Assembly: GCF_021233415.1 (NCBI RefSeq)
Contig: NZ_CP089466.1
Location: 434,001-498,000 of the forward strand
DNA: 64,000 nucleotides
Direction of reading: 5' to 3'
Origin: Halobacterium litoreum
Lineage (GTDB): Archaea > Halobacteriota > Halobacteria > Halobacteriales > Halobacteriaceae
Positions within the stretch are counted from its first letter, which is position 1. Every line of letters begins with the position of its first letter. Shown one piece after another: positions 9,326 through 60,182 of this stretch. Below the pieces are notes generated by a model, which made no database searches, was not told where the DNA came from, and saw only the letters and a program-made list of their open reading frames with translations. A program made the position numbers and the translations under genes.

Positions 9326-9651
9326 ACTCGGAGTGATGCCTTCGGGGTTAAAGTGGATTGCTATCTCCTCGGCGCGCCGAATCCGGGCGACTGGCGCCCG
9401 CGACGCCCGCTGTCCGGTCGGCGTGATGCCGGCTAACCACTCGTTAGTCGTGGGTCCGACTGCCAATCGCCCAGCGAGTAGGTGTGACTTTCGACGACTA
9501 GGGGCGTCCGGGGCGCCGCGAGGGGCGAGCCTACGCAGTCGGAAGGCGTGCCCACGCCTCCCAGTAATTCGACGTTAGACGCGCTCGGAGTGCTGAATTC
9601 GCGTAAACTATCGGCGCAGTTTATCTGCAATCCCGTCGATGATTCGTCTGT

Positions 9652-9678: not shown

Positions 9679-10512
9679 ATGTACGAGCAGTCACCGCTCC
9701 AACAGCCGTCGCTATCGTCACTCGAACAGTTCGGCCGGTCGCAGGCCGCGGGCGCACAGGAGTACGCCCAGCAGGGCGCCGGACAGTCCCAGCAGCCACA
9801 GCAGTTCGCGGGCGTCCAGCAGCCACAGACCCAGCAGTACGCACAGCAGTCGCCGATTCAGCAACCGACCGCCCAGCAGTACGCACAGCAGCCGACCGCC
9901 CAGCAGTCGCCGATTCAGCAGGCACAGCCCCCGCAGGCCGTACAGACACAGCCACAGCAGACGCCGGTCCAGCAGCCCCAGCAGACACAGCCCCAGCAGT
10001 TCGGCGCGCCGAGCCAGATTCTCGGCCAGCAGCCGACCGCCCAGCAGTTCCAGCAGCCGCGGCTGCCGTCCCAGTTCGGGAGCATCGGCGCGCAGTCGAC
10101 GTGGGCGCAGTCCCAGCAGCCGCAGTTCCAGCAGCCACAGCCCACCCCGCAGGTCGGACAGTCGTCACAGCAGACGGGACAGGCCCAGCAGATTCCGGTT
10201 GGGTCGGTTCCCTCCGAGTCACCACAGCAGATTCCCGTCGAACACGGCCAACACGCCGCCCAGCAGACCCCGTGGCAGTCCTTCGGCCAACACGAACTCA
10301 CCCGGCAGAGCGTCGAGATGGCGGACACACCGACGCTCGCGGACGCCCTCGCGCGCCGGCTCGGGCTGACCAGCCAGCAGCTCGCACAGGTGCTCCCGCA
10401 ACTCGGCGCCGCGCTCGGCGCGCCGACACACGGACAGCAACTCGGCGTCGCGAGCCAGGCGGCGATGCCCCAGCAGGGACCGACGCCGATTCAGCCCGGC
10501 ATCCAGCAATGA
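9679..10512 (+). CDS. Glutamine-rich, prion-like low-complexity protein
   Basis: The product has 277 residues. Residues 20-205 are dominated by Gln with Pro, Ala, Ser and Thr and contain short recurring units such as QQSPIQQ, PTAQQYAQQ and QQPQQT. Only about nine acidic residues are visible in the whole protein, very unusual for a haloarchaeal cytosolic protein. A short ordered segment follows (about 215-250, TLADALARRLGLTSQQLAQVLPQLG), a predicted amphipathic helix pair, and then another Gln-rich tail. No signal peptide or membrane segment is visible. The stop overlaps the ATG of the Hsp20 gene (ATGA), so the two are translationally coupled. Function unknown; a phase-separating or aggregating client or scaffold for the sHSP is an inference. 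Confidence 0.8.
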   Translation: MYEQSPLQQPSLSSLEQFGRSQAAGAQEYAQQGAGQSQQPQQFAGVQQPQTQQYAQQSPIQQPTAQQYAQQPTAQQSPIQQAQPPQAVQTQPQQTPVQQPQQTQPQQFGAPSQILGQQPTAQQFQQPRLPSQFGSIGAQSTWAQSQQPQFQQPQPTPQVGQSSQQTGQAQQIPVGSVPSESPQQIPVEHGQHAAQQTPWQSFGQHELTRQSVEMADTPTLADALARRLGLTSQQLAQVLPQLGAALGAPTHGQQLGVASQAAMPQQGPTPIQPGIQQ

Positions 10513-11015
10513 GTTACGACCCCCAGTGGCCCAACGGGTCGCCGTACGCGGCGTTCGGCGGCGTCGGCGGCCAGCCGCCGGTCGGGCCCGCTGGCCCGGT
10601 CGGCCCCGCCACGCCAGCGGGACAGTCGGGCGTCCCGTCGGGCGCCGCGCCCCAACAGGGCGAACAGGTCGAGGCGCGTCCGCCGGCCGCGATTCCGATG
10701 GTGGACATCGTGGAGTCCGCTGACGAACTCGTGGTGCGTCTCGACGCGCCGGGCTTCGAGGAGGACCAGATCGAGATACACGCGGACGCGAACAACCTGT
10801 TCGTGACCGCCGACCGCTCCCAGCAGCCGGGGTTCGACCCCGAGCGCGGCGAGCGCGCGCTGCTCTCCGAGCGCCCGATGCGACTGGAGCGAACTATCTC
10901 GCTTCCGGCGCACATCGACCCGGAGCAGGCCACTGCGACCCACGAGAACGGCGTCTGCAAGATCGTCGTCCAGAAGGACGACGAGGACCGTCGCCACGAG
11001 ATCGGCTTCCAGTAG
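10509..11015 (+). CDS. Hsp20/alpha-crystallin small heat-shock protein
   Basis: The product has 168 residues. The first 60 residues are a Gly/Pro/Gln/Ala-rich disordered arm (GGVGGQPPVGPAGPVGPATP) related in composition to the upstream Q-rich protein. The alpha-crystallin domain runs from about 65 to 165, with VDIVESADELVVRLDAPGF and ERTISLPAHID. The C-terminal IxI motif is not obvious; the protein ends RRHEIGFQ. It binds unfolding proteins without ATP. Overlap with the upstream gene implies stoichiometric production and a possible physical partnership. Confidence 0.9.
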   Translation: MSYDPQWPNGSPYAAFGGVGGQPPVGPAGPVGPATPAGQSGVPSGAAPQQGEQVEARPPAAIPMVDIVESADELVVRLDAPGFEEDQIEIHADANNLFVTADRSQQPGFDPERGERALLSERPMRLERTISLPAHIDPEQATATHENGVCKIVVQKDDEDRRHEIGFQ

Positions 11016-11401: not shown

Positions 11402-11977
11402 ATGAAACTCCGTCAGAACGTCCGGCACTTCGCGTCCCGGAAGGCCCTCGAGCTCCCCGGCGTTCGGAACGTCGTCCGCCCGAAACTGGTCGACCTCCAC
11501 GTCGGCATCTTCGGCGACAAAGCCCCGGAAGCCGACCGTCCGGAGCGCGAAGAACACCTGGAAGGCTTCTTCGACGCGACGATGGACATGTACCTCGCCG
11601 CGCTCAACGAGGGGTACACCGAGGCCGAGGCCCGAGAGACCACCCACATCGTCGCGAACTTCGACTTCTACAACCACGGCTGGGCGGAGATGATGGAGTT
11701 CCCGCCAGCGGAACTGTCCGAGCACTACGAGCGCTACGCCGACTTCTTCGACCGCCACGGCGTCAGCATCGACGACCCGCTCGGGGAGTTCCGACCGGAG
11801 GACGGCATTCCCGACGCGCCCACCACGCCCGAGCGCCTCGACGACGCGGACTTCGAGAACGCGGACGCGGGCTACGAGGACGACGTCTACGTCGAGACGG
11901 AGGACGGCGATGTCCAGCGCGGCGACGTCGAGGAGCCCGAGGACGTGGACGCCGAGGACAGTCCGTTCACCGACTGA
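11402..11977 (+). CDS. Haloarchaeal uncharacterised protein (DUF6149-like)
   Basis: The product has 191 residues. An N-terminal amphipathic section (MKLRQNVRHFASRKALELPG) is followed by a helical domain with ETTHIVANFDFYNHGWAEMMEFP and a long acidic tail rich in Glu and Asp from about residue 135. No membrane segment is visible. The 3' end overlaps the convergent metallo-hydrolase gene by 11 bases. The family name is from memory; function unknown. Confidence 0.72.
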   Translation: MKLRQNVRHFASRKALELPGVRNVVRPKLVDLHVGIFGDKAPEADRPEREEHLEGFFDATMDMYLAALNEGYTEAEARETTHIVANFDFYNHGWAEMMEFPPAELSEHYERYADFFDRHGVSIDDPLGEFRPEDGIPDAPTTPERLDDADFENADAGYEDDVYVETEDGDVQRGDVEEPEDVDAEDSPFTD

Positions 11978-47825: not shown

Positions 47826-48102
47826 TCCAGCGTTGAATACCCTCGCGGCCTTCGAGTTGATTGGCGGCACTCGGCCGCCACCTGTCAGGGCACAGGGTCC
47901 GGGTGCTGGACGCCGGCGGCCACTCCCCCTCCCGCCGCCGGCCATCCCAGTCGGACCGCGCTCGTCCCCCTCTCCCCCTCGTGCGCGGTCCACCCGTTCC
48001 GGGGTGTCAGTCTTCTGTCGGTCGCGCGGCGCTCCACCGGTCCGCGCGACCGATTCGTGCCGCGGCACCGTCGGGTGGCGGTGCCGCGACCACCGGCTTT
48101 TT
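47826..48102 (+). ncRNA. Candidate structured non-coding RNA (five perfect hairpins)
   Basis: The stretch has no plausible protein. Five stems pair perfectly in order: 47862-47868 with 47874-47880 (7 bp), 47912-47920 with 47934-47942 (9 bp), 47953-47961 with 47983-47991 (9 bp), 48018-48029 with 48042-48053 (12 bp), and 48061-48070 with 48079-48088 (10 bp). A TTTTT run at 48098-48102 follows, as in archaeal termination. The start is inferred from the CTTAACC box. I see no RNase P core words, SRP RNA features, or box C/D pairs. It could also be a long leader of the Hsp20 gene. Confidence 0.5.
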
Positions 48103-48127
48103 CGATGCGCCGTCCCAAGGCAGGGGT

Positions 48128-48478
48128 ATGTCCCGCTTGCGCGAAGCGCTGGGGAACCTGCCCGAGTCCGTGTTCGTCGACGTGTTCGACGGCGACGACG
48201 CCTACCTCTTCGTCGTGGACGTGCCGGGCGTCACCGCCGACGACGTCGACGTGCGCGTCGACGGCCGCACGCTCGTCGTGGACGCCCACCGGGCGAAGTC
48301 GGTCCCCGAGGGGTTCGACTACCGGACCGAGGAGCGGTCGCTGTTCCTCGATTTGGAACTCCCGTTCCCGCCGGACGCCACCGACGACGGCGCGTCGGCG
48401 TCTGTCGAGAGCGGCGTCCTCGAAGTCCGCCTGCCGAAGCGCGGGGAGACGACGCGCAGCGTCCCCATCGAGGGCTAG
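48128..48478 (+). CDS. Hsp20-like small chaperone
   Basis: The product has 116 residues, almost nothing but an alpha-crystallin domain: VFVDVFDGDDAYLFVVDVPGV, VRVDGRTLVVDAHR and LEVRLPKRGETTRSVPIEG. It is shorter than typical Hsp20 and has no N-terminal arm, so large oligomers are less likely. It ends 3 bases before the ABC1 kinase gene, forming an operon. Confidence 0.85.
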   Translation: MSRLREALGNLPESVFVDVFDGDDAYLFVVDVPGVTADDVDVRVDGRTLVVDAHRAKSVPEGFDYRTEERSLFLDLELPFPPDATDDGASASVESGVLEVRLPKRGETTRSVPIEG

Positions 48479-56471: not shown

Positions 56472-58226
56472 ATGGGTGGCCCCCACGGACTCGACGGGCG
56501 GGACGAACCGGCGCGACGCGACGACGACCACGCGGAACTGCTCTCCGAGTTAGACGGGCACGACCTCGCGCTCGCGCTCGACGTGGTGGACGCCAGCGAC
56601 GCCGACGCCCTCGACTTCGACCCGGACGCCGACCCCGACGAGGTGTTCCCGCAGTCGGTCGCCAGCGGCGGCCCGACGCCGTCGGGCGTCATCCTCTGGA
56701 CGCGCGTCGCGGCCGACGCCTTCGACCCGGAGACGCCACTCGGCGTGCAGGTCGCTCGCGACGAGGACTTCGAGACGGTCGTCTACGACGGCGTCGTGAC
56801 CGACGGCGACCGAATCCGCGCCCACGACCACACGGTCAAGGTCGACTTAGACGGGCACCTCGACCCGGACTCGACGTACCACTACCGGTTCGTCTACGAC
56901 GGCGTCGCCACCCGAACCGGGCGGTGTCGCACGCTCCCGCGTCCCGACGACTCCCCGGAGTCGGTGCGCTTCGCGGTGCTCGCGTGCCAGAACTACCTCA
57001 ACGGCTACTACCCCGCGTTCCACCACGTCGCCGAGGAAGACGTGGACTTCCTCGTGCACGTCGGCGACTTCGTCTACGAGTCCGACGACGGCCACTTCAA
57101 GGGTCTCGGCTCCTACGACTATCCGGGTCGAGACCTCTCGCTCCCGAGCGGCCACGACCGCGTGTGGACGCTCGAAGACTACCGCTACCTCTACCGCACG
57201 TACCGCGAGGACGACTTCCTGCAGGAGGCGCTGGAATCCCACACGCTCGTCGCCGGCTGGGACGACCACGAACTCGTCAACGACGTCTACTGGGACTCCC
57301 GGACCGACGCGCCGGCGGGCGACCACCCGCGCGGCGACGACCCCGAGTTCATGACCGAACTCGTCGCCGACGGGATGCACGCGTGGTGGGAGTACATGCC
57401 CGCTCGCGTCGACTACGACCCGAGCGGCGACCGCCTGCAGGACCGCTTCCGGCTGTGGCGTGACTTCGAGTTCGGCGACCTCGTGACCCTCGCGATGACC
57501 GACGAGCGCCTCTTCCGGGACCCGCCCCGCGAGGCGATTCCGACGCCGGACAACGTCGGCCCGCAGTACGAACCGCCCGGTCGGACGATGCTCGGCGACG
57601 AGCAACGCGAGTGGCTGATAGACACCGTCACCGAGTCCGACTCGACGTGGACGGTGTGGGCCGACGAGGTGCTGACGGTGCCGTTCCGCTTCGGCTCCGG
57701 CCCGCTCTCGGTCTACCCCGTGCAGGGCGGCTGGGACGGCTACACCCGAGAGCGCCAACAAATTACTGAAGCCGTCGACGCCGCCGACGTAGAGAACTTC
57801 GTCACGCTCACCGGCGACATGCACTGCTACGTCGCCGCCTACCAGCAGTCCTCGTACCCCGGCCGCGTCTCCGGCGGCGAGGGCGTCGCGGCCGGCGACC
57901 GCATCGGCGTGGAGTTCATGACGCCCGCCGTCACCTCGCTGAACGTCGCCGAAGCGCTCCACCTCACTCGGGGCTGGCGCGGGAAACTCACCGAACCCCT
58001 GCTGACGTGGCTGATTACCGCGATGAACCCCCACATCGAGTTCTTCGACAGCCACAACTGGGGGTACTCGGTCGTGGAGTTCACGCGCGAAGACTGCACG
58101 TACGTCGGCTACGCCGTCGACAAGACCGAGAACTCCCCGGACGCCGACCGAGACGTCGTCACCGCCTACCGCGTCCCCGAGGGCGTCGTCAACTTAGAGG
58201 ACGTCACCGACGAGTTCGACGGCTGA
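56472..58226 (+). CDS. PhoD-type alkaline phosphatase/phosphodiesterase
   Basis: The product has 584 residues. A PhoD N-terminal beta-domain (about 55-160, QSVASGGPTPSGVILWTRV) precedes the metallophosphatase domain with VLACQNYLNGYYPAFHHVAEEDVDF, VHVGDFVYES, AGWDDHELVNDVYWDS and LTGDMHCYVAAYQ. No signal peptide is visible; the start MGGPHGLDGRDEPARR is acidic and soluble. PhoD enzymes are usually exported, so an intracellular or alternatively secreted form is odd. Confidence 0.9.
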   Translation: MGGPHGLDGRDEPARRDDDHAELLSELDGHDLALALDVVDASDADALDFDPDADPDEVFPQSVASGGPTPSGVILWTRVAADAFDPETPLGVQVARDEDFETVVYDGVVTDGDRIRAHDHTVKVDLDGHLDPDSTYHYRFVYDGVATRTGRCRTLPRPDDSPESVRFAVLACQNYLNGYYPAFHHVAEEDVDFLVHVGDFVYESDDGHFKGLGSYDYPGRDLSLPSGHDRVWTLEDYRYLYRTYREDDFLQEALESHTLVAGWDDHELVNDVYWDSRTDAPAGDHPRGDDPEFMTELVADGMHAWWEYMPARVDYDPSGDRLQDRFRLWRDFEFGDLVTLAMTDERLFRDPPREAIPTPDNVGPQYEPPGRTMLGDEQREWLIDTVTESDSTWTVWADEVLTVPFRFGSGPLSVYPVQGGWDGYTRERQQITEAVDAADVENFVTLTGDMHCYVAAYQQSSYPGRVSGGEGVAAGDRIGVEFMTPAVTSLNVAEALHLTRGWRGKLTEPLLTWLITAMNPHIEFFDSHNWGYSVVEFTREDCTYVGYAVDKTENSPDADRDVVTAYRVPEGVVNLEDVTDEFDG

Positions 58227-58324
58227 CCGCCAGCGTCTTCTCGCCCCGCCGACTACGTCCGCGTGGCCGATGACGACGCCACCGGGCCGACCCGGGGTGG
58301 CTCCCGCGGGACGACGAGCCCTAT

Positions 58325-58339
58325 GAGTACCGAGGCCGA
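58325..58339. repeat. 15-bp direct repeat, left end of the low-GC segment
   Basis: GAGTACCGAGGCCGA is identical to 59378-59392. The flanking bases differ at both copies, so the match is exactly 15 bp. The gap 58227-58449 also contains the TATATTATGG box (58411-58420) of the 58450 gene. Confidence 0.65.
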
Positions 58340-58449
58340 ACTATTACCGAAGACGACCGTTCACCTGTTCGTGAGCCGGCGATTTCAGGACGGGGTCCGC
58401 GATACGAACCTATATTATGGGGTTTTGCTAACGTGTTGTAGTTACGGCG

Positions 58450-59016
58450 ATGAGTGAGGCTCCAGCCTATCTACGTGAGGCAACTACGTATCTGAACAGT
58501 AATGGCTGGGACACCTCTCGGAAGCGAGTTCGAGAGGGGACGTTTCTCGTACTGGGGGCGAAAACCGGTCTCGAGGGCGAAAAGCGATTGCTGGCGATGG
58601 TCGTGACGGCGGCTGCGGGGAGCGTGACGAAAGACCATCTCAAGTATCTCTTGCAGACTGCTCGGAAACAGGACGCGGATACAGTGGTGATCACTGCGGA
58701 GTTCGGAATCGGCGACCCCATCGAGAAGGCAGCGAAGGAACACGGAATTGGCACAATCAGTACCGGTCTTGTTGCGGGCGACAGTTCGGATGGACGTGGT
58801 GGAACGCAGTCCGAGCCCTCTTCGGAGTCTACATCGTGGGTCGATTCCGACGAACAAGAAGATGATACTGAGGGGGTCTGGACTCGTCGCCGGTTACTGA
58901 TTGGGGGCGGCGTCGGCGTTTTGGGTGGCGCCCTGCTGGTCGGTGACCGAGTACTTGGGTTGGGCGGTGGCGGCTCAGGGAAGTTCACCACCGAGCGAGC
59001 AGCCACGGAACTCTAA
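58450..59016 (+). CDS. Membrane protein with nuclease-fold-like N-terminal domain, truncated by an in-frame stop
   Basis: The product has 188 residues. Residues 1-100 (GTFLVLGAKTGLEGEKRLLAMVVT, HLKYLLQTARKQDADTVVITAEFG, EKAAKEHGIGTIS) have the strand-helix order of restriction-endonuclease-like domains, but the usual catalytic Lys after the central strand is not seen. An acidic Ser/Glu linker is followed by one membrane helix (TRRRLLIGGGVGVLGGALL, about 147-165). The TAA at 59014-59016 is in frame with the 59017-59310 reading. Function unknown. Confidence 0.62.
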   Translation: MSEAPAYLREATTYLNSNGWDTSRKRVREGTFLVLGAKTGLEGEKRLLAMVVTAAAGSVTKDHLKYLLQTARKQDADTVVITAEFGIGDPIEKAAKEHGIGTISTGLVAGDSSDGRGGTQSEPSSESTSWVDSDEQEDDTEGVWTRRRLLIGGGVGVLGGALLVGDRVLGLGGGGSGKFTTERAATEL

Positions 59017-59310
59017 AACGAGGTGGAAGCACACGAAGACGTCAACCGGATTGAGACGACAGCCCGAGAAAACAGTGACGTCGAGGTTCGAGTCTGGTAC
59101 ACGCAGCAAGAAGAGGGTGAGCGAATCAATTTGCTGGATGTCTACGCTCGCCTCGTCGACGACGGATACGACATCGGGGATTTGGTCGTTCAGTTGCACG
59201 TGAGCATCATCGATGCCGAGGTCATCGTACAGCGAGCGTGGGCCGAACAGTACAATGCCGGCGAGATGACTAGAGACGAATTCAGCGCGAAGGTCAACGA
59301 CCAAATCTGA
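59017..59310 (+). pseudogene. Downstream in-frame part of the 58450 gene, separated by TAA
   Basis: The frame continues for 97 codons from the stop to TGA 59308-59310, reading NEVEAHEDVNRIETTARENS, then VRVWYTQQEEGERINLLDVYARLV and ending EFSAKVNDQI. GTG 59023 could start it independently, but no promoter or ribosome-binding site is near. The two parts are most simply one protein (about 286 residues) with a nonsense codon; a true two-gene arrangement or readthrough is possible. Confidence 0.5.
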
Positions 59311-59377
59311 GTATTCGACCGACTGTGTTCCGGTGGTGACCCCGCCCAGAGTAGCGTTGTTACACGGTCGATGATTC

Positions 59378-59392
59378 GAGTACCGAGGCCGA
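59378..59392. repeat. 15-bp direct repeat, right end of the low-GC segment
   Basis: GAGTACCGAGGCCGA is identical to 58325-58339. It lies 18 bases beyond the end of the rhodanese gene. Composition returns to high GC to its right. Confidence 0.65.
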
Positions 59393-59410
59393 CCGGTTCT
59401 CGACGCGTAC

Positions 59411-59776
59411 TCAGAACAGTTTCCAGAGAATCGACCGGAGCCGGTAGCCGAGCGTGCCCTTCTGGTAGCCTCGCCAGCCGCTCATGCCGCCCGAGAGCGT
59501 CGCGGCGTCGTAGCCTTCAGCGTCGAGAACGCGGGTCGCGCGCTTGGCGACGATGCCCATCTTGCAGATTGTCACGACCTCGCGGTCGCGGGGCACGTCG
59601 TCGAGCGCGTCTCGGAGCGCGTCGTCGTCGCCGGAGCGCAGGTCGTCGTAGACCGGGACGTTGTGGCTGCCGTCGACGTGCCCTGCTCGGTAGTCGTCCC
59701 GCGGTCGGATGTCGAGGAGGAACGTGTCGTCTCCGTCGGGACGGGAGTCCAGTTCGGCTGGACGGATTTTGCTCAT
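59411..59776 (-). CDS. Rhodanese-like protein
   Basis: The product has 121 residues, a single rhodanese domain: FLLDIRPRDDYRAGHVDGSHNVPVYDDL and the active-site Cys in VVTICKMGIVAKRATRVL, then GYDAATLSGGMSGWRG. It transfers sulfur from a persulfide to an acceptor. The Arg/Tyr-rich C-terminus (GYRLRSILWKLF) may contact membrane or a partner. Much longer upstream readings are artefacts; ATG 59774-59776. Confidence 0.9.
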   Translation of the reverse strand: MSKIRPAELDSRPDGDDTFLLDIRPRDDYRAGHVDGSHNVPVYDDLRSGDDDALRDALDDVPRDREVVTICKMGIVAKRATRVLDAEGYDAATLSGGMSGWRGYQKGTLGYRLRSILWKLF

Positions 59777-59840
59777 CGTCCCCGCTAGTGAGCGGGGTCG
59801 GTAAAGCGTTGCTTCGGGACCGCCCCAACCAACACGAACT

Positions 59841-59850
59841 TTTATTATAG
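59841..59850 (+). promoter_or_regulatory. TATA box of the 59875 two-cistron unit
   Basis: TTTATTATAG ends 25 bases before ATG 59875, an AT-rich word in otherwise GC-rich sequence. Spacing predicts a leaderless transcript whose first codon is the uORF ATG. Confidence 0.65.
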
Positions 59851-59874
59851 ATTCGGTCGTCGGTGCCGACACCG

Positions 59875-59958
59875 ATGCATCTCGTACTCGCACCCGACGC
59901 CAGCCCCGACGGACCGCCGACAAATCGCCGCCGACCGTATCCGACACCCACCAGATGA
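59875..59958 (+). CDS. 27-residue leader peptide/uORF
   Basis: It reads MHLVLAPDASPDGPPTNRRR and ends PYPTPTR. Its TGA (59956-59958) overlaps the ATG (59955-59957) of the next reading frame. It has correct leaderless spacing to the TATA box. It is Pro/Arg-rich with no known family. It may serve only to deliver ribosomes to the following frame. Confidence 0.4.
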   Translation: MHLVLAPDASPDGPPTNRRRPYPTPTR

Positions 59959-60182
59959 AGACAGCCACCGACACGACAGTCGACGCCGTCCTCCCCGACG
60001 TCGAACCGACCGACACGACCAAGCCCGCCGAACCCACCGACGACGCCGCCCGTGATACAGGCACCTCGCCGCCAGACACCGACGAGTCGTGGGTGGCGAA
60101 GTGCCAGCGCCAGTTCTCTGACAGCGACCGCCGTCTGGGCAACCTCGTCGACGGCGAGAACGCGGTCGTCGACGGCGCGTGA
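59955..60182 (+). CDS. Small acidic Thr/Pro/Asp-rich protein
   Basis: The product has 75 residues: MKTATDTTVDAVLPDVEPTD followed by a Thr/Pro/Asp linker and a more ordered end, DESWVAKCQRQFSDSDRRLG then NLVDGENAVVDGA. It has one Cys and no membrane segment. Translation is presumably coupled to the preceding uORF by the ATGA overlap. I know no homologue. It is divergent from rhodanese and followed by UspA. Confidence 0.5.
   Translation: MKTATDTTVDAVLPDVEPTDTTKPAEPTDDAARDTGTSPPDTDESWVAKCQRQFSDSDRRLGNLVDGENAVVDGA

Follow-up and report, generated by a model that had tools for sequence, protein, structure and literature searches.

A glutamine-rich, prion-like protein encoded directly upstream of one clade of haloarchaeal small heat-shock proteins

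Why should a haloarchaeon encode a glutamine-rich protein with very few charged residues directly in front of, and overlapping with, a small heat-shock protein (sHSP)? The question is raised by a locus of Halobacterium litoreum, whose genome comprises 2.7 Mb, and was pursued in a stretch of 64,000 nucleotides (contig NZ_CP089466.1, positions 434,001 to 498,000 of the forward strand), hereafter called the window, together with other haloarchaeal genomes. Most 2-kb steps of the window have a G+C content of 66–74%, and the lowest value, 61.4%, was found at 58001–60000. The first gene of the locus and the tract that makes up most of its product are as follows:

9679..10512, + strand: gene of the Gln-rich protein, including the stop codon (open reading frame, composition, dN/dS, PLAAC-like score)
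9679..10296, + strand: low-complexity Gln/Pro/Ala/Ser tract, approximately residues 1–206, predicted to be disordered (AlphaFold pLDDT mostly below 50)

The encoded protein has 277 amino acids (stop codon TGA at 10510–10512) and consists of 31.0% Gln, 12.3% Pro, 10.8% Ala, 7.9% Ser and 7.6% Gly, with 1.4% His and only 9 acidic (D+E) and 5 basic (K+R) residues, which bears out an earlier reading of this DNA (the original prediction) that the protein is dominated by Gln, Pro, Ala and Ser and poor in charged residues. That such a protein is exceptional in this genome was also upheld. A comparison set of 3191 stop-to-stop frames, each 80 amino acids or longer, was drawn from 464 kb of the genome (the window and 20 further stretches, each of 20 kb); the densest 80-residue stretch of the Gln-rich protein contains 37 Gln, against 17 and 14 for the runners-up, and the protein is an extreme outlier in Gln density within this sample. 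Its composition also resembles that of yeast prion domains. A PLAAC-like score, calculated over 60 residues with yeast prion frequencies and not with the PLAAC program itself, reached 40.2, compared with 8.1 for the next frame (the overlapping sHSP frame) and 6.1 for the one after that in the same 464-kb sample. While prion-likeness was judged from this score, disorder was judged from the confidence of an AlphaFold model built from six alignment rows, in which most of the protein has a pLDDT below 50 and two helices are predicted near the C-terminus. Prion-like composition and predicted disorder across most of the chain, both of them expected, were found; FoldIndex gave near-neutral, uninformative values for this protein.

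The second gene overlaps the stop codon of the first and shows the following features:

10509..10512, + strand: ATGA, in which the sHSP start overlaps the stop of the Gln-rich gene (identical in 10/10 close orthologues)
10509..11015, + strand: sHSP gene, including the stop codon, 168 amino acids (open reading frame, Pfam match)
10509..10694, + strand: N-terminal Pro/Gly/Ala/Gln-rich arm of the sHSP, residues 1–62 (composition, alignment)
10704..10991, + strand: alpha-crystallin (Hsp20) domain, residues 66–161 (PF00011, E 9e-13, 48.6 bits)
10995..11012, + strand: C-terminal H-E-I-G-F-Q end of the sHSP (near-invariant in an alignment of ten close orthologues)

The predicted overlap with an Hsp20 start was thus found as a shared 4-nt ATGA. 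The alpha-crystallin domain was recognized well above the PF00011 cut-off of 20.8 bits, and profile comparison matched the sHSP to sHSPs of known structure, Hsp16.5 among them. Its ending, H-E-I-G-F-Q, is one that we take to be possibly an anchor of the I-x-I type. The arm, with four charged residues, had been described as rich in Gly, Pro and Gln; Pro (21%) and Gly (19%) are indeed abundant, but Gln is modest here (10%) and Ala (16%) is prominent instead.

Searching 98 related genomes with the sHSP yielded nine close orthologues besides that of the window, set off from other Hsp20s by a gap in E-value (1.5e-28 versus 5.4e-15). Each of the 10 is immediately preceded, on its own strand, by a frame with 22–39% Gln, and ATGA joins the genes in 10/10 loci, one of which, L012, is cut by a contig end. 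Named relatives with the pair, H. salinarum DSM 3754 among them, belong to the genus Halobacterium. A class-wide profile search of 391 genomes then returned 30 loci: 24 with a separate upstream Gln-rich gene, two fusions in sister sHSPs (L063 and L070) in which a Gln-rich region and an alpha-crystallin domain lie in one chain, two with Gln-rich arms on the sHSP (L066 and L069; with L143, three such arms in all) and two with neither (L072 and L073). The 24 paired loci span five families by computed labels (f1, 9; f5, 10; f4, 2; f8, 2; f11, 1), of which f5 includes Halobaculum (Haloferacaceae). Within f5, a search of 170 genomes found 13 strong sHSP members, 12 of them paired (10 already counted in the class search) and one, L142, belonging to the sHSP clade without a Gln-rich gene; a plasmid locus of Halobaculum lipolyticum, L076, is one further paired member. 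In total, 27/28 members of the clade, from five haloarchaeal families, have a Gln-rich gene directly upstream at an intergenic distance of −4 to +17 nt. The original prediction had named the lack of a conserved pairing in other genomes as grounds for abandoning it; the pairing was found to be conserved, and the claim is strengthened by the natural fusions, but it holds for one sHSP clade and not for Hsp20s generally. The original prediction is thus supported in part, and the condensates, amyloid-like assemblies, stress granules or storage that it suggested are conjectural. The partner goes under the name “hypothetical protein” in the annotation of two plasmids.

The distribution of the pair is patchy: it was found in 24/391 class genomes, and 5/13 genomes of the window's own genus have no sHSP of the paired clade, so the module appears to be dispensable, though useful. 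In Halobaculum, the pair lies on large plasmids near an orc1/cdc6 replication gene (L074, NZ_CP081960.1; L076, NZ_CP126155.1), a location that may account for the patchy spread. Downstream of the pair, the window encodes a DUF6149 protein (11402–11977), and a similar gene adjoins the pair in L012 and L013, which suggests local synteny in the genus. A scan of genome contigs with the single sHSP as query and scans of viral contigs yielded nothing useful.

A general association of Hsp20s with Gln-rich genes was rejected, since none of 42 distinct ordinary Hsp20 loci has a Gln-rich neighbour, defined as a frame with at least 16 Gln in 80 residues, with flanks of mostly 1.5 kb on each side. The raw counts were 0/20 (L017–L036), 0/14 (L110–L123) and 0/16 (L144–L159), plus L073, an ordinary Hsp20 without Gln-rich gene or arm; for the 42, repeated places were counted once, L018 was dropped as the same sHSP as L072, and L073 was added. 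L072 itself (genome G017) is a neighbouring sHSP that lacks an adjacent Gln-rich gene and has a long, charged arm of Glu/Arg/Pro repeats, and the window holds a second, divergent Hsp20 (48038–48457), likewise with no Gln-rich frame nearby. In a first tree of the alpha-crystallin domain, 24 paired sHSPs fell on one side of a branch with support 95/77. A larger tree, which omits the long or gappy rows L024, L082 and L086 and repeated loci, separated 27 paired, three Gln-armed, two fused and two bare sHSPs from 32 controls (95/48) and placed the 27 paired sHSPs and L142 on one side of a branch (86/78). Support is moderate because the trees have only about 113 columns (113–114).

Upstream of the pair, an alignment of nine regions revealed one more feature:

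9593..9624, + strand: conserved block resembling a promoter, with a TATA-like TTTAT (9620–9624) at its end

In the window, this TTTAW motif starts 59 nt before the ATG of the Gln-rich gene, and it lies 56 or 59 nt before that ATG in 9/9 upstream regions examined, against a background of 36 occurrences in 400,000 positions of the genome sample. As judged from sequence, the motif and the wider conserved block fit a single putative promoter for both genes. The Gln-rich frame itself shows a dN/dS of 0.21–0.70, below 1 in 8/8 pairs compared. Its Gln codons comprise 79 CAG and 7 CAA, and aligned Gln–Gln sites are often encoded by different codons (15/79 and 30/92 in two examples). No more than two Gln follow one another in the window's protein, which therefore has no slippage tract.

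The composition of the partner proteins is conserved and their sequence is not: the Gln-rich tracts align poorly. The window's protein nevertheless contains a conserved part near its C-terminus:

10297..10425, + strand: conserved 43-residue helical segment, approximately residues 207–249 (alignments, AlphaFold model, genome search)

Helices are predicted at residues 217–227 and 232–245 of this segment, which is common to six Halobacteriaceae partners; across the 391 class genomes it was detected at E ≤1e-23 only in those six, beside an sHSP of the paired clade, and six more matches at E 0.003–0.01 were taken as chance. It is missing from two partners of the window's genus (L049 and L050, in genomes G001 and G010), which are rich in Gln, His and Gly, with about 40% Gln and 1% Pro. 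Nine partners of f5 or f8 type have another C-terminal domain, about 100 residues long, predicted in a Haloferacaceae-type protein (L067) to form a four-helix bundle with a pLDDT of about 90. Helical segments at the C-terminus, which differ from lineage to lineage, make the partners more than pure low-complexity proteins, and this corrects the original prediction.

A Foldseek search with the four-helix domain listed copper storage proteins (Csp) at the top (E about 0.01, probability 1.0). With VIA-align, the first 25 rows were Csp entries, PA2107 (also inside designed fusions) and Nmul_A1745 structures, with BsCsp3 as the best match (Z 14.5, rmsd 1.9 over 102 residues); the first designed bundle came next at Z 11.6, and helical bundles in general can give Z values of up to about 13. 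By its predicted model, the L067 domain is likely to have the Csp four-helix bundle fold, helical bundles being common. No Csp or DUF326 relationship of the partners was found by sequence, and 18 rows of the domain contain few Cys and no conserved one, in contrast to the Cys-lined core of Csp; at most the fold is therefore held in common, not the copper chemistry. The window's C-terminal segment, modelled as two short helices, gave no profile match to the Csp-like domain. No Pfam domain scored above its cut-off in the partners, and weak matches to DprA_WH, UBA_6, DUF445, ApoLp-III and Phasin_2 were treated as chance. The Csp-like four-helix domain occurs in 69/391 class genomes. Twelve loci outside the paired set (L168–L179) encode Gln-rich proteins with this domain and no sHSP among the frames listed, and one of these proteins (L168, frame 1174–2331) contains two copies of the domain. 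Gln-rich four-helix proteins without an sHSP point to a wider haloarchaeal Gln-rich family, part of which is sHSP-paired.

A link to stress comes from H. salinarum, whose orthologue of the window's sHSP (L015, L039, L081) has a computed mass of 18.54 kDa. In the available text of a report on strain NRC-1, sHsp-2 has a predicted mass of 18.53 kDa and is induced more than 2-fold at 49 °C, with spots assigned by gel position (PMC1475562). The orthologue thus matches sHsp-2, by mass alone (pI 4.23 computed versus 4.07 listed); two other H. salinarum Hsp20 loci, at 14.16 and 14.31 kDa, match sHsp-1 (14.15) and Hsp-5 (14.3) of the same report. What that text describes of sHsp-2 is its induction only, and the Gln-rich neighbour goes unmentioned. 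Two further sources, as far as their available text goes, give no help to the stress link: hsp5 was the sHSP most affected by heat in a microarray study (PMC1971269), and chaperones showed no rise in halite (PMC9976938).

The recurring pairing and the occasional fusion suggest that the two partners cooperate in collecting or retaining proteins under stress. We favour the reading that the Gln-rich gene and the sHSP form one stress module, a split sequestrase that makes reversible deposits in the manner of yeast Hsp42, and we consider it about evenly balanced between right and wrong. It is based on ATGA in 10/10 loci, the 27/28 pairing in the clade versus 0/42 in controls, the fusions L063 and L070, the grouping of paired sHSPs in the trees, the TTTAW spacing in 9/9 regions, a composition kept while the sequence drifts at a dN/dS of 0.21–0.70, the heat induction of sHsp-2 through the mass match, and the Hsp42 precedent. 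Against it stand the unpaired L142 and the patchy occurrence of the pair, the C-terminal domains that differ between lineages without matching each other, and the four-helix domain with Gln-rich tails that also occurs without an adjacent sHSP. By analogy, we infer that the pair may be physically partnered, may co-assemble and may sequester clients: the low-complexity arm of the sHSP would associate with the Gln-rich protein, whose Gln/Pro tract would offer many weak uncharged contacts and whose C-terminal helical domain would drive oligomerisation. Together they would concentrate misfolding proteins in deposits or condensates that can be reversed, a task that in yeast falls to the prion-like domain inside Hsp42; here the sequestrase would be split into two polypeptides, with Gln-based contacts expected to tolerate molar KCl. 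A bolder version, which we offer tentatively and would sooner doubt than accept, is a dedicated haloarchaeal two-gene sequestrase, made of this sHSP clade and a prion-like scaffold, that forms a regulated stress organelle at molar KCl; the scaffold would keep its Gln-rich composition while its oligomerisation domain was exchanged between lineages, in one case for a Cys-less bundle of the copper-storage type.

The main alternative is that the Gln-rich protein is a client with a structural, storage or matrix role (a granule coat, a filament or a functional amyloid) and the sHSP its dedicated chaperone, holding it in solution until it is required. An aggregation-prone protein encoded first, with an overlapping chaperone gene second, would suit this arrangement, and the related Gln-rich proteins that have a folded domain and no sHSP neighbour may have a role of their own; however, the fusions to the alpha-crystallin domain and the Gln-rich arms of L066, L069 and L143 better fit a working partner, and by eye no secretion signal is apparent at the N-terminus, so that we consider the client explanation unlikely, if still the most serious competitor. 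Rather improbable is a disordered, hydrophilin-like shield against drying or dilution, made together with the sHSP because both are stress-induced and with no physical partnership. The protein is hydrophilic, largely uncharged and predicted to be disordered, and the H. salinarum sHSP has its heat link, but the fusions and the strict limitation to one sHSP clade suggest more than shared regulation, and conserved helical domains would be superfluous in a shield. A metal role, with partners descended from copper-storage-like proteins and Gln/His-rich versions binding metal, could draw on the predicted Csp-like fold and on the Gln/His/Gly-rich partners in G001 and G010; we regard it as very improbable, and metal storage was not favoured, given the rare, unconserved Cys, the missing Csp or DUF326 match by sequence, and the window's own protein, which is poor in His and ends in a different C-terminal segment with no Csp profile match. 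Finally, a spurious open frame or CAG-repeat artefact is scarcely credible: the preponderance of CAG in a GC-rich genome and the poor alignment outside the C-terminal segment would suit it, but chance and CAG slippage were rejected on the outlier status in Gln, the dN/dS below 1 and the fixed TTTAW spacing, and the short Gln runs, the conserved helical segment and the natural fusions to the alpha-crystallin domain also speak against it.

A literature search, largely of openly available papers, returned no description of a Gln-rich gene paired with an sHSP. Surveys of prion domains count archaeal candidates, and their available main text does not mention sHSP pairs (PMC3654983, PMC4606120); the available text of a review of haloarchaeal stress proteins does not mention the pair either (PMC7601130). 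If the split-sequestrase reading is true, archaea have a chaperone-organised sequestration that relies on a prion-like scaffold, and since its two parts are separately encoded, they can be separated genetically. H. salinarum, which has the pair, would then offer a tractable system for asking how low-complexity assembly proceeds where molar salt screens charge interactions, and the scaffold would be a clear example of a protein that evolves through its composition and not its sequence, beside a conserved chaperone.

Among known systems, the archaeal Hsp14 and Hsp20 equivalogs of NCBIfam have the alpha-crystallin domain in common with the window's sHSP, which scored 69.6 and 53.5 bits against them, below the cut-offs of 100 and 140; unlike them, the paired clade has its own arm, its own ending and its own partner. 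Csp1 and Csp3 (PDB 5fjd, 6wkt) resemble the Haloferacaceae-type partner domain in its predicted fold, but these partners have almost no Cys, no sequence-level match and a long Gln-rich tail. By analogy, the closest functional model for the pair would be yeast Hsp42, an sHSP with a disordered prion-like domain described, in the available text, as essential for its sequestrase function (PMC6813348); the action of sHSPs on low-complexity condensates is treated in the available part of a review (PMC13287201). As in Hsp42, an alpha-crystallin domain is combined with a disordered prion-like region, in one chain in L063 and L070 only; unlike in Hsp42, the prion-like part is not in the same chain but in a separate upstream gene in 27 loci, including that of the window. 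The haloarchaeal prion-like part is further distinguished by being rich in Gln and Pro, the organism and its salt regime differ, and its sequestrase activity is putative. What is new here is that the prion-like part of an sHSP system is encoded apart, by a conserved gene that overlaps or adjoins that of the chaperone.
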